Assembly: GCF_000020985.1 (NCBI RefSeq)
Contig: NC_011296.1
Location: 496,001 to 560,000, forward strand
DNA: 64,000 bases
Reading direction: 5' to 3'
Source of the DNA: Thermodesulfovibrio yellowstonii DSM 11347
Lineage (GTDB): Bacteria; Nitrospirota; Thermodesulfovibrionia; Thermodesulfovibrionales; Thermodesulfovibrionaceae
In this document: in pieces, positions 3,273 through 45,211 of the stretch
Numbering within the stretch: the first letter of the stretch is position 1
How the letters are laid out: the number at the start of each line of letters is the position of its first letter
The notes under the pieces: model-generated
The model's database searches: none
The model's input: only the letters and a program-made list of their open reading frames with translations
Told to the model about the DNA's origin: nothing
Position numbers and translations under genes: made by a program

Positions 3273-3370
3273 GGGAGTGTATGGGGTTCTGGTGTCCCTC
3301 CTGGACTTCAAATCCAGTGTTGCCTGTGAGGAACAGGCAGGGTGGGTTCGATTCCCACACGCTCCCGCCA
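3273..3370 (+). tRNA. selC: tRNA-Sec (anticodon TCA)
   Basis: Selenocysteine tRNA that reads UGA. At 98 nt including an encoded CCA it is longer than ordinary tRNAs. The acceptor stem has eight pairs (GGGAGTGT with ACGCTCCC, including one T-G pair), the anticodon stem CTGGA/TCCAG encloses the loop CTTCAAA with anticodon TCA at 3308-3310, a long variable arm pairs GCCTGT with ACAGGC, and the T arm is GTGGG-TTCGATT-CCCAC. The 8-bp acceptor, long variable arm and TCA anticodon together identify it. SelA, which charges it with selenium, is encoded at 28743. Confidence 0.97.
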
Positions 3371-20088: not shown

Positions 20089-20095
20089 TAAAGAA

Positions 20096-20150
20096 ACTGG
20101 ATTGAGCGAGTTTAGAAATGTCCAAAAATATCTGAGGAGCGAAAGCCAGT
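20096..20150. repeat. Palindromic element, copy A (short form)
   Basis: Outer arms ACTGGATT (20096-20103) and AAGCCAGT (20143-20150) pair in seven of eight positions. The inside (GAGCGAGTTTAGAAATGTCC ... GAGCGA) matches the right half of copy C at 41.1 kb. It lies eight bases after the P-type ATPase stop and may also serve as a terminator. Confidence 0.7.
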
Positions 20151-20198
20151 GCTTCTATTAAGAATTTTAAATTTTAAACTAAAATAATTAAAGAGACC

Positions 20199-39104: not shown

Positions 39105-40106
39105 TTAACATATTCTTGGCAACTGTTCTCCAGGAAGCATATCAACTATTCTGGTACCCCCAATGAATGTTTTAAGTAAAACTTTTCCTCCCTTGCCAGT
39201 TACTTCCCCAATTATAGCAGATTCTTCTCCAAAAGGGTGCGATTTCATTAATTGTAAGATTTTCTCTGCTACATCTGCTTTAACAATTGCAACGAAAATT
39301 CCCTCATTCGCCACATAAAGTGGGTCAAGTCCAAGAAGTTCACAAGCACCTTTTACTGTGTCATGAAGAGGGATAGCACTTTCATAAATTAAAATATCTT
39401 TCAATGATTCTAATGCAAGTTCTTTAAGTGTTGTGGCTAATCCTCCACGAGTAGGGTCTCTCATTACTTTTACGAATGGTGTAAATTCCTTCATTATCTG
39501 GTCAATTAAGCCATTTAATGCCCTTGTATCACTTAAGACAGGTGGCTCAAAGGTAAAGCCGTTTCTCTCGCTCATAACAGCAATACCATGATTCCCTATA
39601 GAGCCACTTATGAGGATTTTGTCGCCCATTTCAATTTTCAGAGGGGAAAGCTCTACTCCTTCGGGAATTACTCCTATTCCAGAGGTATTTATAAAAATTC
39701 CATCTCCCTTTCCTTTGTCTACAACTTTAGTATCTCCTGCAACAATTTTTACTCCTGCTTTTTTAGCTGAGGAGGAGATGCTACTGAGTATTTTTTCAAA
39801 ATCAGACAGAGGAAAACCTTCTTCAAGAATAAAGCCAACAGTAAGATAAAGGGGAACTGCACCGACCACTGCCAGGTCGTTCACAGTTCCATTAATTGCA
39901 AGGTCTCCAATATCGCCACCTGGGAAAAAGATAGGAGAAACAGTATAAGAATCAGTTGTTATTGCTATTTTTCCTGAATGATTAAGAGAAACTATCGCAG
40001 AATCCATAAGAGAAGGGAGTTCAAAAATAGGTGCAATATATTTTTTAATAAGCTCATACATGAGCTTGCCGCCACTTCCGTGTCCCAGAAGAATTTTATC
40101 CATCAT
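39105..40106 (-). CDS. hypE: Hydrogenase maturation protein HypE
   Basis: Dehydrates the thiocarbamate on its own C-terminal Cys to thiocyanate, providing the cyanide ligand of [NiFe] hydrogenases. The 333-aa AIR-synthase-fold protein has GHGSGGKLMYELI, DSAIV, TTDSYTVSPIFFPGGDIG, RDPTRGGLATTLKE and ends in the diagnostic PRIC. The other hyp genes are not nearby. The ATG is preceded by GTGGAGGTGC within the upstream lipoprotein gene. Confidence 0.95.
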   Translation of the reverse strand: MMDKILLGHGSGGKLMYELIKKYIAPIFELPSLMDSAIVSLNHSGKIAITTDSYTVSPIFFPGGDIGDLAINGTVNDLAVVGAVPLYLTVGFILEEGFPLSDFEKILSSISSSAKKAGVKIVAGDTKVVDKGKGDGIFINTSGIGVIPEGVELSPLKIEMGDKILISGSIGNHGIAVMSERNGFTFEPPVLSDTRALNGLIDQIMKEFTPFVKVMRDPTRGGLATTLKELALESLKDILIYESAIPLHDTVKGACELLGLDPLYVANEGIFVAIVKADVAEKILQLMKSHPFGEESAIIGEVTGKGGKVLLKTFIGGTRIVDMLPGEQLPRIC

Positions 40107-41217
40107 GCACCTCCACTTTTATTTCTACTGCTTCACTCTCTTTTAAAGGAGCTTCCGAAGTGATTTTATAATAAACCGGCGATTTTATGTTAGTGATATT
40201 ATACTTGGCGTCAAAGAATAGAGGAATCATTGTTTCACCTACAAGCTCATAACTCTTTTCATCTGCTGTTTTTCTATATATTCTGTAACCTTTTATCCAT
40301 CTTTCTTTGGTTTCTTTCCATGAAATATAAACTCCTTGCTCATTAACTGACCAGAAAACTTCCTTAGGCTTTGTCGGAATAAAAGATTCAATTGAAACTT
40401 TTGTTTCAATGCCTTTGCTCTCCAGATATGCTGATTCATAGGATTTAGAAGTAGTAATAACATAGGGAATTTCCGATTGAGAGTTTTCTTTGTAACTGCT
40501 TATGCTTCCGTAAAGAAGTTCGTCTAAAAAGAATTTTTTATCTGTTGAGCCAATCTTTACTCTCTCACCCTTTTGATTTATCCTGTACACGTTATAAGTC
40601 AATGAATTCTGTGCATCCCATGAAAGCATTACGCCTTCAGGATTAATTTTATAAGTAATATTTTCCACCTCAGGTAATTTTTGAGGAGTAATCGTAGCTT
40701 CTGTTGGTTTGCTGTATATACCTTTTGGTCTTATGGCAAAGATACGATATCTGTAAGTTTCTCCGAAGGTAAAATCTTTGTCCTCAAGGGAGGTAGTTTC
40801 TTTATTGTAGTAACCAAGAGTTTTTTTCTCTCCTTTGCTTTCTCTCTCTATGAGGAAGCTTTCTATTTTAGTTTTTTCTTTTTCAGGATAACTCCAGGAA
40901 ATTAATATTTTGTCATAAGTAGCTGAAAGCGTTAAACTCGCAACGGGCTCGGGCTGAAGATAGTCATCAAGATTTGGGTCAAGCTTTCTGCCACAGGCTG
41001 TGAGAAGGAATAGTAAAATAAAAATTGTTAAACAAGTAAATACTGGTGTGAGCGATTTTAGATATCTTTGGGTAACAGTTCTTAACGAAGTGTAGCGTAA
41101 AACAGTTGCAACTGTCTGAAACCCGAAGGGTTGAGTTTTGCAACTGTAGCGAAACGAGTTTAGAACTGTCCAAAGATATCTCATGAGCGAACACCAGTAA
41201 AACTTGCCTTTCTTCAT
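40096..41217 (-). CDS. Lipoprotein with fibronectin-III-like domains, carrying an inserted palindromic element
   Basis: The 373-aa product is a lipoprotein (lipobox LLTAC, Cys75) with two or three fibronectin-III-like beta domains (LILISWSYPEKE-type, EGVMLSWDAQNS, GVYISWKETKERW). Its signal peptide is odd: the frame starts MKKGKF at the argH stop (ATGA overlap), then residues 7-59 are encoded by a 159-bp palindromic repeat, and only then comes the hydrophobic core FTCLTIFILLFLLTAC. No other start codon exists before the lipobox. Deleting the 53 codons leaves a normal lipoprotein signal peptide. It is co-transcribed with hypE downstream. Confidence 0.8.
   Translation of the reverse strand: MKKGKFYWCSLMRYLWTVLNSFRYSCKTQPFGFQTVATVLRYTSLRTVTQRYLKSLTPVFTCLTIFILLFLLTACGRKLDPNLDDYLQPEPVASLTLSATYDKILISWSYPEKEKTKIESFLIERESKGEKKTLGYYNKETTSLEDKDFTFGETYRYRIFAIRPKGIYSKPTEATITPQKLPEVENITYKINPEGVMLSWDAQNSLTYNVYRINQKGERVKIGSTDKKFFLDELLYGSISSYKENSQSEIPYVITTSKSYESAYLESKGIETKVSIESFIPTKPKEVFWSVNEQGVYISWKETKERWIKGYRIYRKTADEKSYELVGETMIPLFFDAKYNITNIKSPVYYKITSEAPLKESEAVEIKVEVHDG
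41041..41199. repeat. Palindromic element, copy C (159 bp), in the lipoprotein N-terminus
   Basis: Outer arms TACTGGTGT (41041-41049) and ACACCAGTA (41191-41199) pair perfectly. Inside, GATATCTTTGG...ACAGTTCT (41061-) pairs with AGAACTGTCCAAAGATATC (41162-41180), and the centre holds a smaller hairpin around AACCCGAAGGGTT. Its length is 53 codons. Confidence 0.85.
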
Positions 41218-42590
41218 TCCTTCAACCTCTTCCTCAACATTCTTATCTGTTCCTTTACACTCTTTTTTGAAGTGCTTCCGTAGGAGCTTTTTGAATCAAT
41301 TGAACCTTCAGGAGTAAGTATGGCATAGAGGTCTTTTTCAATTTTTGACGAGAACTTCCTTAATTCCTTTATGCTTAATTCGTTGAGATTTTTACCCTTT
41401 TCAATACAGTAAAGCACAATCTTGCCTGTTATCTCATGGGCATTTCTAAAGGGAACTCCCTTCTTTACAAGATACTCTGCAATGTCTGTAGCTGTAATGT
41501 AGCCACTTCCGCAAGCCTCTTTCATTCTCTCTTTGTTGAATTTTATCTCCGGAAGCATTTCTGTAATTACTCTAAGGCTCATGATTACTGTGTCAATCGT
41601 ATCAAAGACAGGCTCTTTGTCCTCCTGCATGTCTCTATTATAGGTAAGGGGAAGTCCTTTCATAGTTGTAAGCATGCTAAGCAGATTTCCGTAAACTCTG
41701 CCTGTTTTCCCTCTAATTAACTCTGCCGGGTCTGGATTTTTTTTCTGAGGCATCATGCTTGAGCCAGTGGAGAATTTATCAGGCAGCTCAATAAATCTGA
41801 ATTCATCTGTTGCCCAAAGGATTATCTCTTCAGCAAGCCTGCTTAGATGCATCATGAGCATAGCACCACAGTATAAAACATCAAGGACAAAATCTCTGTC
41901 TGAGACCGCATCCATGCTGTTTGGAATTGGTTCTTCAAAACCAAGCTCCTTTGCTGTGTAATGCCTGTCAATTGGAAGGCTGCTTCCTGCAAGGGCACCT
42001 GCACCAAGAGGGCATAGATTGAGCCTTTTTAGTGCCTCTTTCAGCCGCTCCCTGTCTCTTTCAAGCATCCATGCATAAGCAAGTAGATGATGAGCAAGAA
42101 GCACTGGCTGGGCTTTCTGTAGATGAGTATATCCGGGCATGATTGTATCAATGTTTTTTTCGGCAACATTAACAAGGGTTTTCTCAAGCTTTTCTGTTAA
42201 CTCTATTAATTCATTCACTCTTTTTCTCAAATAAAGTCTTAAGTCAGTGGCAACCTGGTCGTTTCTTGACCGGGCTGTATGAATCTTTGCACCAGCAGAG
42301 CCTGTTTTTTCAATCAAAGCTCTCTCAATGTTCATGTGTATATCCTCAAGCTCTTCTTTGAACTGAAACTTTCCCTCTTTGATTTCTCTTTCAATTTCAG
42401 CAAGTCCCTTTAAAATCTGCTTTAGCTCCTCTTCAGTGATAATGCCCTGTTTGCAGAGCATCTTTGCATGGGCACGGCTTCCTTCAATATCTTCCTGCCA
42501 GAGCCTTCTGTCAAAAGAGATTGACTGTGAGAACTCCTCCAGTGTCTTAGCAGTTCCTTCCTTAAATCTTCCACCCCACGGTTTTTTCAT
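41214..42590 (-). CDS. argH: Argininosuccinate lyase
   Basis: Last step of arginine synthesis. The 458-aa fumarase-superfamily enzyme has EDIHMNIERAL, HTARSRNDQVATDLRLYLR, the GYTHLQKAQPV block and the signature GSSMMPQKKNPDPAELIRGK. It opens the transcription unit that continues into the FN3 lipoprotein, hypE and the SurA-like gene. Confidence 0.96.
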   Translation of the reverse strand: MKKPWGGRFKEGTAKTLEEFSQSISFDRRLWQEDIEGSRAHAKMLCKQGIITEEELKQILKGLAEIEREIKEGKFQFKEELEDIHMNIERALIEKTGSAGAKIHTARSRNDQVATDLRLYLRKRVNELIELTEKLEKTLVNVAEKNIDTIMPGYTHLQKAQPVLLAHHLLAYAWMLERDRERLKEALKRLNLCPLGAGALAGSSLPIDRHYTAKELGFEEPIPNSMDAVSDRDFVLDVLYCGAMLMMHLSRLAEEIILWATDEFRFIELPDKFSTGSSMMPQKKNPDPAELIRGKTGRVYGNLLSMLTTMKGLPLTYNRDMQEDKEPVFDTIDTVIMSLRVITEMLPEIKFNKERMKEACGSGYITATDIAEYLVKKGVPFRNAHEITGKIVLYCIEKGKNLNELSIKELRKFSSKIEKDLYAILTPEGSIDSKSSYGSTSKKSVKEQIRMLRKRLKE

Positions 42591-42646
42591 CTATGCTTAC
42601 TTCCTCCCTCGTATGTCATTTCAAGAAGCGTAAACCTCCCTCATCT

Positions 42647-42816
42647 GTCATTCCGAACGGAGCAAAGCAAAGTGAGGAATCTCTTTCGATTGTAAAAATT
42701 TTGTCTGCACTATTTCTTGTAACCTGAGTAACATATAAATTAGGCGACCCTTCGGCTAAAGCCTCAGGGTGACCCATAAGGGTCACTTCGGGGTCATTGA
42801 GCCCCCTCGGAATGAC
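42647..42816. repeat. TCATTCCGA-type long hairpin repeat
   Basis: GTCATTCCGA (42647-42656) pairs with TCGGAATGAC (42807-42816). A small perfect hairpin, GTGACCC/GGGTCAC (42769-42786), lies inside. Similar repeats are common in intergenic regions of several bacterial phyla. Confidence 0.7.
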
Positions 42817-42888
42817 CTTTTGTAATTGAACATACCCTAATTTTTTAAGTTTATTATTCCTACAAAACATATTCATACTTTCAGAAAA

Positions 42889-42933
42889 TAGATGCTTTAA
42901 TAAGCGATTTATAAATCTTCTGGTAACAATTTT
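42889..42933. repeat. Partial palindromic element (left arm only), copy E
   Basis: GCTTTAATAAGCGATTTATA and the following TGGTAACAATTTTTA align with the left arm of copy D, which begins 60 bases further on. No right arm was found, so it is a truncated copy. Confidence 0.55.
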
Positions 42934-42948
42934 TATCAAACAAATAAT

Positions 42949-43104
42949 TGCTGTATTGAGCGACTTTTAAAATTTTTGGGTAACAATTCTTAGCGAAGCA
43001 GAACGTCCACAGCCAAAACTGTTTGAGCCTGAAAAGCAAGTTTTTTGGCTGTAGTGGAGTAAGCTTAGAATTGTCCAAGAATTTTGCAAAAGCGAAATAC
43101 AGCA
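42949..43104. repeat. Palindromic element, copy D (156 bp)
   Basis: Outer arms TGCTGTATT (42949-42957) and AATACAGCA (43096-43104) pair perfectly; the inner arms AAAATTTTTGGGTAACAATTCT and AGAATTGTCC...AATTTT pair, and CCACAGCCAAAACT pairs with AGTTTTTTGGCTGTAGTGG. The layout equals copy C but the stem sequences differ with compensating changes. Confidence 0.85.
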
Positions 43105-43114
43105 TCTGTTTACT

Positions 43115-45211
43115 TCACTCCTCTGCCTTTGCCTGACGTTCTTTTTGCCTCTGCTCAATTATTTTCTGGGCAATATGAGAGGGCACTTCCTCATAATGGG
43201 AAAACTCCATTGAGTAAATTCCTCTTCCCGATGTCATACTGTGAAGCTGATTGGCATAGGTAAGCATCTCTGCCATTGGCACAAGGGCTGTTATCTTTTG
43301 ATTTCCTCCAGCCTGTGGGTCAACGCCCTGAACCTTGCCTCTACGGGAGTTAAGGTCTCCAATGATTGTTCCCAGTGTTTCATCAGGCACGATTATTTCA
43401 GCTTTCATGATTGGTTCAAGCAATACGGGTTTTGCATCCATAAAGGCTTTTTTAAGAGCAAGAGCACCAGCTATTTTGAAAGCCATTTCAGAGGAATCTA
43501 CAGGATGATAAGAACCATCATAGAGAGTTACTTTTATGTCAATTATTGGATAGTATGCAAGTATTCCTTCTTTCATCGTCTCAATTATGCCTTTCTCAAC
43601 AGCAGGGCGATACTGTTGCGGAATAACACCTCCTACGATTTTATCAACAAACTCATAGCCGCCTCCTCTTGGAAGAGGTTCTATCTGAATCCAGCAGTCT
43701 CCATACTGGCCTCTTCCACCAGACTGCTTTTTATATTTGCCCTGGGCAGAAGCAGAGGCTCTGATTGTCTCTCTGTATGGAACTTTTGGTGCCATTAGGT
43801 TAACTTCAACACCAAATTTTCTTTTAAGTTTTTCCAGAGCAACTTCTATATGAACCTGTCCCATTCCACTTAGAATCATATCCTTAGACTCTTCATCCCT
43901 TGAAAACTTAAGAGTAGGGTCTTCCTCAAGAAGTTTATGTAACCCTGCGCTGACCTTTTCCTCATCACCCCTTGTTTTTGGTGCAATTGCATAGGAGATA
44001 ATAGGCTCGGAGAATCTTACCTCTGGAAGCAGAATCGGATTATTTTCATCGCAAAGAGTGTGTCCTGTGAGAGTATCCTTTAGTTTTACTGTAGCTACAA
44101 TCTCACCATGTCCTGCTTTCTGGCAGGGATTTTGTGTTTTGCCGAGTATGTAGTAAATCTGGCCAATCCTTTCCTTTGTGCCTGTGTTGGGATTAAGAAC
44201 TGTAGAGTCAGCCTTAAGCACACCTGAGAAAACTCTTATGTATGATATTTTGCCTGCAAAAGGGTCTATGGTGGTTTTGAAAACATAAGCAGCAAGCGGA
44301 GCTGTTTCGGAGGGTTCTCTTTTTGCTTCGCTGCCATCTTTTGGATTAATGCCTTTTATAGGATATATATTTGCTCTTTCCTGTGGGTCTGGAAGAGCGA
44401 GAATTATGCTATCAAGTAAAGCATCAACTCCTATGCCCAGCAAGGCTGAACCAGCAAGGACAGGGATGAATCTGCGGGCAATTGAGGCATCATGAAGCCC
44501 TTTTCTTAATTCCTCCTCGGTGAGCTCTCCTCCTTCAAGATACTTTTCGAGCAGGCTATCATCAAGCTCCGCAATTTTCTCTACGAATTTTTTTCTGTAT
44601 TCCTCAACTTTTGATGAAAGCTCGGAAGGGATAGGCACTTCTTTTACTGATTTTCCATCCTGCTCGTAGGCTTTAAGTGATATAAGGTCTACTATCCCTC
44701 TTAAGCCAGGACCTTCGCCAATGGGCAGGGTAAGAGGGATTGCCTCCTGACCAAAAACCTTTTCAATCTCTGCAACTGCTCTGTCAAAGGATGCGTTTTC
44801 CTTGTCAAGCTTGTTTACGAAAACTACTCTTGGAAGGTCGTAGTCATCGCAGTATTTCCATATTCTTTCAGTTTCAGCTTTAACACCCGAAAGGGCACTG
44901 ACAATGACAACAGCGCCGTCGGAAACTCGAAGGGCATTCTTTGTATCTTCAAGAAAGTTAACAAAGCCAGGTGTATCTATAATGTTAATTCTGTGCTCTT
45001 TGTAATCACAGTAAGCAACTTTGCAACTCAGTGTCATATTTCTTGCAAGCTCTTCAGGTTCATAATCAATTACTTTGCCTGTTGTCTCGCCTGTAGTTAC
45101 TCTGTCAATTTGCCCTGTTTTAAAAAGTATCTGCTCTGCAAGTTTGGTATTCCCTGCACCTGCATGGGCTACAATTGCTACATTTCTAATTTTTGTAATG
45201 TCTCTACTCAT
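43115..45211 (-). CDS. Elongation factor G paralogue (EF-G2 type) with altered P-loop
   Basis: A 698-aa translational GTPase with all five EF-G domains. G3 is DTPGFVNF, G4 is VNKLDKE, and domain IV/V blocks VPYRETI, GGRGQYGDCWI, EPIMKAEIIVPDETLG and LNSRRGKVQG are present. The P-loop reads AHAGAGNTKLAEQ (15-27): the GKT lysine is Asn21. The adjacent Lys23 might substitute, or the protein may hydrolyse GTP poorly. EF-G2-type proteins are usually dispensable paralogues; the main EF-G is not in this window. The start has a GAGGAGGGGG site. Confidence 0.88.
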   Translation of the reverse strand: MSRDITKIRNVAIVAHAGAGNTKLAEQILFKTGQIDRVTTGETTGKVIDYEPEELARNMTLSCKVAYCDYKEHRINIIDTPGFVNFLEDTKNALRVSDGAVVIVSALSGVKAETERIWKYCDDYDLPRVVFVNKLDKENASFDRAVAEIEKVFGQEAIPLTLPIGEGPGLRGIVDLISLKAYEQDGKSVKEVPIPSELSSKVEEYRKKFVEKIAELDDSLLEKYLEGGELTEEELRKGLHDASIARRFIPVLAGSALLGIGVDALLDSIILALPDPQERANIYPIKGINPKDGSEAKREPSETAPLAAYVFKTTIDPFAGKISYIRVFSGVLKADSTVLNPNTGTKERIGQIYYILGKTQNPCQKAGHGEIVATVKLKDTLTGHTLCDENNPILLPEVRFSEPIISYAIAPKTRGDEEKVSAGLHKLLEEDPTLKFSRDEESKDMILSGMGQVHIEVALEKLKRKFGVEVNLMAPKVPYRETIRASASAQGKYKKQSGGRGQYGDCWIQIEPLPRGGGYEFVDKIVGGVIPQQYRPAVEKGIIETMKEGILAYYPIIDIKVTLYDGSYHPVDSSEMAFKIAGALALKKAFMDAKPVLLEPIMKAEIIVPDETLGTIIGDLNSRRGKVQGVDPQAGGNQKITALVPMAEMLTYANQLHSMTSGRGIYSMEFSHYEEVPSHIAQKIIEQRQKERQAKAEE

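Follow-up and report, generated by a model that had tools for sequence, protein, structure and literature searches.

The palindromic element described here lies at the junction of two overlapping genes in a window of 64,000 nucleotides of Thermodesulfovibrio yellowstonii, which corresponds to positions 496001-560000 of the single contig (2,003,803 bp) that makes up this genome, labelled G000 in the genome comparison. Both genes are located on the minus strand: argH (41214-42590), which has adjacent orthologues in related genomes, and a gene of the ORF list (40096-41217) that encodes an argH-linked, insert-bearing lipoprotein of 373 amino acids whose mature part is conserved across the genus. 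The start codon of the lipoprotein gene and the stop codon of argH share the four nucleotides ATGA (41214-41217, minus strand), and this overlap is identical in 12 of the 13 orthologues of the genus. The product reads MKKGKF...FTCLTIFILLFLLTAC and contains the hydrophobic core FTCLTIFILLFLLTA (40996-41040, minus strand; from the translation and the hydropathy of the following residues), which is placed immediately 3' of the element and whose first residues may be element-derived. The lipobox Cys codon (40993-40995, minus strand) provides residue 1 of the mature lipoprotein and is the conserved first position of the mature alignment. Elsewhere in the window, a selenocysteine tRNA is found at 3273-3366 on the plus strand (Rfam RF01852, 72.6 bits).

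The core of the element (copy C, 41041-41199, minus strand) has 159 nucleotides, which represent 53 codons in the host frame without any stop, and it is bounded by an outer stem of 9 bp formed by TACTGGTGT (41041-41049) and ACACCAGTA (41191-41199). These coordinates, the stem, the length and the open frame had been given in a preliminary description of the locus and were all confirmed on re-examination. Copy C scored 169 bits with the covariance model of the family, and a 179-nt strand folded at -68.3 kcal/mol (z = -8.9 versus shuffles). In the 123 copies analyzed with their flanks, complementarity runs about 10 nt past the ends of the core, where the sequence itself is variable. Since the outer stem of the family reaches this far, the true insert is probably closer to 165-180 bp, and part of both MKKGKF and FTCL is probably element-derived; the probable full insert including the outer stem has been placed at 41031-41208 (minus strand) from this extended complementarity and from the outer pairing in the fold, with approximate rather than base-exact ends. 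The earlier figure of 53 codons is valid for the core, the real net gain being about 55-60 codons.

The repetitive nature of copy C, already noted, was corroborated by a BLAST search of the T. yellowstonii genome, which returned one further copy (81% identity) together with partial matches, and by the covariance model, which identified a second full copy (42949-43104, 166.5 bits) and a fragment (20095-20151, E = 1.5e-5), both on the minus strand. The second full copy lies between argH and an elongation-factor-like gene located upstream, whose stop codon it follows at a distance of about 10 nt. The 3' end of a further copy (42887-42931, minus strand) is 91% identical to a stretch of duplicated copies in genome G004, where two full copies lie in tandem upstream of argH. 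In T. yellowstonii, argH is consequently flanked on both sides, by a full copy and a fragment upstream (42887-43104 region, minus strand) and by copy C after its own stop codon. A REP-like palindromic stretch of a different type (42616-42850, minus strand, GGTCATTCCGAGG...CGGAATGACAGATGAG) is found between the upstream element copies and argH. At another site of this genome (L002 1493-1648; G000:C1:926324-926479), the reverse strand of the element contributes the upstream portion of the open frame of a nucleotidyltransferase-like gene with no obvious nearby ATG of its own.

The covariance model was built from 16 copies and has a length of 156 positions. With this model, the family was found in at least 87 of the 176 genomes and at least 43 of the 85 genera sampled in the order, about half of the genomes, with copy counts that are lower bounds because part of the candidates per genome was scored; full copies per genome are few in the genus. 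Matches were also obtained in some other members of the phylum Nitrospirota. The family is absent from Rfam and therefore new to it: no Rfam 15 covariance model matched within 40900-43200 at E values up to 1. A search of the element against plasmids gave no match. Double changes that compensate for each other were present in 26 of 40 pairs of the 16 copies, so that the element shares with Rickettsia palindromic elements (RPEs) the long hairpin with terminal inverted repeats. In a larger alignment of 104 copies (A2), 497 cells showed a Watson-Crick pair other than the commonest one, and stem mismatches on the plus strand were C-A in 179 cases versus G-T in 44, with the C-A excess spread over many pairs. 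Such a bias would be expected if the opposite strand tolerated wobble pairs. Like a MITE (miniature inverted-repeat transposable element), the family is short, does not code for a transposase, has terminal inverted repeats and occurs in multiple dispersed copies. Its distribution suggests that it is mobile. The thiC-thiE junctions of G000 and G004, whose flanks are only about 79% alike, are too diverged and gave no clear target-site duplication, and a comparison of the element ends in L104 and L265 was confounded by much other extra sequence that G004 carries there.

The number of residues preceding the lipobox Cys separates the orthologues of the genus into several groups. It is 15-18 in G013, G011, G001 and G005, four species with an empty site, 28-36 in G006, G014 and G009, 73-77 in the element-bearing G000, G004, G003 and G015 (74 in T. 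yellowstonii), 82 in G012 and 113 in G007. Beyond the genus, a length of 15-31 residues before the Cys is seen in many orthologues. Given the short forms inside the genus and the many outside it, the sequences indicate that the short n-region is the common state and that the long forms are to be read as gains of about 55-60 codons. The insertion of the element, previously deduced from copy C itself, is borne out by these orthologues with and without it. As for RPEs, the insertion is in frame within a conserved protein gene for which empty-site orthologues exist.

The same n-region carries different inserts in different genomes. Those of G000 and G015 belong to one subfamily and are read in the same frame (RYLWTVL...LRTVTQRYLK), and those of G004 and G003 belong to another subfamily read in the second frame (LFLDSSKL...FVKNCYPKIAK). 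Between G000 and G015, the inserts share 96% identity over 159 nt, while the mature lipoproteins have a dS of about 1.6, near synonymous saturation, and 68% amino acid identity; likewise, the G004 and G003 inserts resemble each other far more than do the synonymous sites of their hosts, which are saturated. Different inserts are found in the two most closely related hosts, G000 and G004, whose mature lipoprotein DNA is 92% identical. An unrelated type of repeat occupies the same place in G012, G009 and G007, with 109 matches to the G012 insert within that genome. Inspection by eye revealed an unrelated CCCTC-type palindrome at this place in G027 and short repeats in G039 and G019. From these sequence comparisons we conclude that several independent events hit the lipoprotein n-region, with a possible contribution of recombination, since the G000/G015 and G004/G003 pairings could partly reflect exchange between lineages instead of fresh insertions.

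The element prefers a site about 22 nt past a stop codon, in one orientation. By crude ORF-based gene calls on the 123 flanked copies, 85 have the end of a long plus-strand ORF no more than 120 nt away on their 5' side (median 22 nt), whereas the stop of a minus-strand ORF is found on the other side, by the same criterion, in 43; copies between two plus-oriented genes number 51, versus 11 between two minus-oriented ones. At the argH locus the distance from the argH stop to the element is 12-29 nt, and this usual address falls within the lipoprotein only because the two genes overlap. In a separate case (L053 1083-1283), the element fills a 66-codon ORF with 4-nt overlaps with the upstream stop and the downstream start, as if bridging two operon genes by translation.

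This preference in position and orientation, together with the strong fold and the extensive pairing-preserving double changes, would also fit a hairpin retained because it acts on the mRNA, stabilizing or attenuating the transcript at the argH 3' end, as proposed for ERIC and YPAL, with the lipoprotein coding being incidental; we regard this explanation as improbable, because sister species have at the same place no element or unrelated repeats, and because the deficit of G-T relative to C-A intermediates on the plus strand is contrary to what pairing of a plus-strand RNA predicts. The mismatch pattern leads us to infer that complementarity may be maintained in the DNA itself, or in the opposite strand.

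A second alternative is that the lipoprotein is translated from a start inside or downstream of the element, most of the insert being an untranslated leader. Some copies elsewhere do have an ATG near their 3' end (a trpS-linked gene and the lipoprotein L157), but in G000, G015, G004 and G003 no ATG, GTG or TTG occurs in frame between the element and the Cys, the last one being 59-73 codons upstream of the Cys, so that most of the element stays coding; the nearest in-frame start of T. yellowstonii, an ATG, precedes the Cys by 63 codons and falls in the 5' part of the element. The downstream start lacking the 53 codons that the preliminary description had considered was thus not found. Furthermore, the frame from the ATG that overlaps argH is open in all insert-bearing orthologues of the genus, and a later start seems very unlikely to us. 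Synthesis of the protein from any canonical start would require translation of most of the element; among gene families whose orthologues were compared thoroughly, that of the argH-linked lipoprotein is the only one that imposes this requirement. Destruction of the gene by the insertion, or an error of assembly, is hardly credible and already largely refuted: many of the comparison genomes are metagenome bins, but that of T. yellowstonii is complete, other assemblies made independently show the same pattern, and the mature lipoprotein is under purifying selection between two insert-bearing genomes (dN/dS = 0.17, G000 versus G004).

The consensus of the family has two open frames on the plus strand and none on the minus strand. 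At least one open frame is present in 109 of the 123 copies, with 142 open frames on the plus strand versus 9 on the minus strand, and the peptides of the open plus-strand frames have a mean net charge of +5.9, with 99% at +2 or above. The four lipoprotein n-regions have net charges of +6 to +11, and a basic n-region before a hydrophobic core suits Sec export. A family-wide selection for read-through is not claimed: a naive permutation null gave 1.18 versus 0.55 open plus-strand frames per copy but ignored column conservation, and in a column-conditioned test the observed/expected ratio was 0.49, 0.84 and 1.06 in the three plus-strand frames, driven by few columns.

We consider it likely that a mobile palindrome is tolerated in a cleaved n-region through insertion next to a stop codon and two basic open frames. 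With a length of roughly 160-180 bp, the element would be a non-autonomous mobile palindrome and would lodge by preference about 20 nt past the stop codon of a gene, in one orientation. Downstream of argH this preferred position would be inside the lipoprotein gene, as its ATG overlaps the argH TGA, and the element would join the n-region of the signal peptide. Its persistence there could be explained by a plus strand with two reading frames that are often stop-free, by the basic peptides that both frames encode, usable as an n-region, and by the removal of all sequence before the lipobox Cys. Lipoprotein signal peptidase cleaves before the Cys, so the mature protein should be unaffected by the insert and the element may be nearly neutral for its host gene. 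The n-region would then be a safe harbour where several unrelated repeats have landed.

Cases beyond the argH locus were found while looking and had not been predicted beforehand. A TPM-domain protein of G145 has the element in frame just before the hydrophobic core, with no later start. In a trpS-linked exported protein (G028, G137, G145 and G136), the element is in frame ahead of an export-type hydrophobic core, with 47, 47, 57 and 26 codons, respectively, separating the upstream ATG from an internal one, which indicates that length changes kept the frame; because of the internal ATG, translation of the whole insert is not forced in this gene. The trpS-linked gene has short ordinary signal peptides in G130, G131 and G132. 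A DUF1460 label for its product was unsupported by Pfam or NCBIfam. Orthologues of both genes carry other repeats in the same stretch. Of two further candidates, an RlpA-like protein (L158) was set aside, as its translation could begin at a GTG located 3' of the element, and the lipoprotein L157 is ambiguous because of an ATG directly 3' of the element. The sequences of these genes suggest that insertion ahead of export-type cores may be a general rule. In several TPM-protein orthologues (L203-L212), the same n-region is filled by another palindrome-like repeat that is unrelated to the first (GYSI.AHSRPDK...); its translation may begin at a TTG immediately past the upstream stop.

In-frame hairpin repeats in proteins are already known from Rickettsia, Wolbachia and enterobacteria (PMC2229807, PMC2759123, PMC10969869). 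RPEs occupy intergenic sites and also lie in frame in protein-coding genes, whose products are retained (PMC2229807, PMC10969869), and for gmk the host protein was shown to be translated and functional. The element resembles RPEs, as previously noted, in being a hairpin of comparable size with terminal inverted repeats that occurs both between genes and in frame; the likeness is one of behaviour, and family membership is not claimed. Described RPEs have 105-146 bp and reside in many metabolic genes of another phylum, whereas the in-frame cases described here are at N-termini before export-type cores. The enterobacterial RU-1/ERIC and RU-2/YPAL are also hairpin repeats of intergenic regions whose open frames are fused to other ORFs, but in YPO1552 the repeat itself forms part of the predicted signal peptide, whereas the present element precedes a pre-existing core, with empty-site orthologues and unrelated repeats at the same site. 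REP/REPIN sequences are likewise dispersed extragenic palindromes, and T. yellowstonii was included in a REP survey (PMC12306157), but REP units are of 20-40 bp (PMC3733652), compared with at least 156 positions and few full copies per genome in the genus for this family. The distinguishing aspects are the repeat family, its stop-adjacent preference, its placement in a disposable n-region before an existing core, and the recurrence of unrelated repeats with empty sites.

Stop-adjacent preference, overlapping genes and a discarded protein segment would together provide a survival route for insertions in coding DNA, and where repeats can enter genes becomes testable across genomes. Long odd N-termini on predicted exported proteins of the order may be repeat-derived and not annotation errors. 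More tentatively, it is possible that cleavable n-regions at tight gene junctions generally serve as safe harbours for repeats in bacteria, and that this palindrome family is adapted to them by a two-frame strand whose products are both basic, resulting in a working n-region and not a broken gene.
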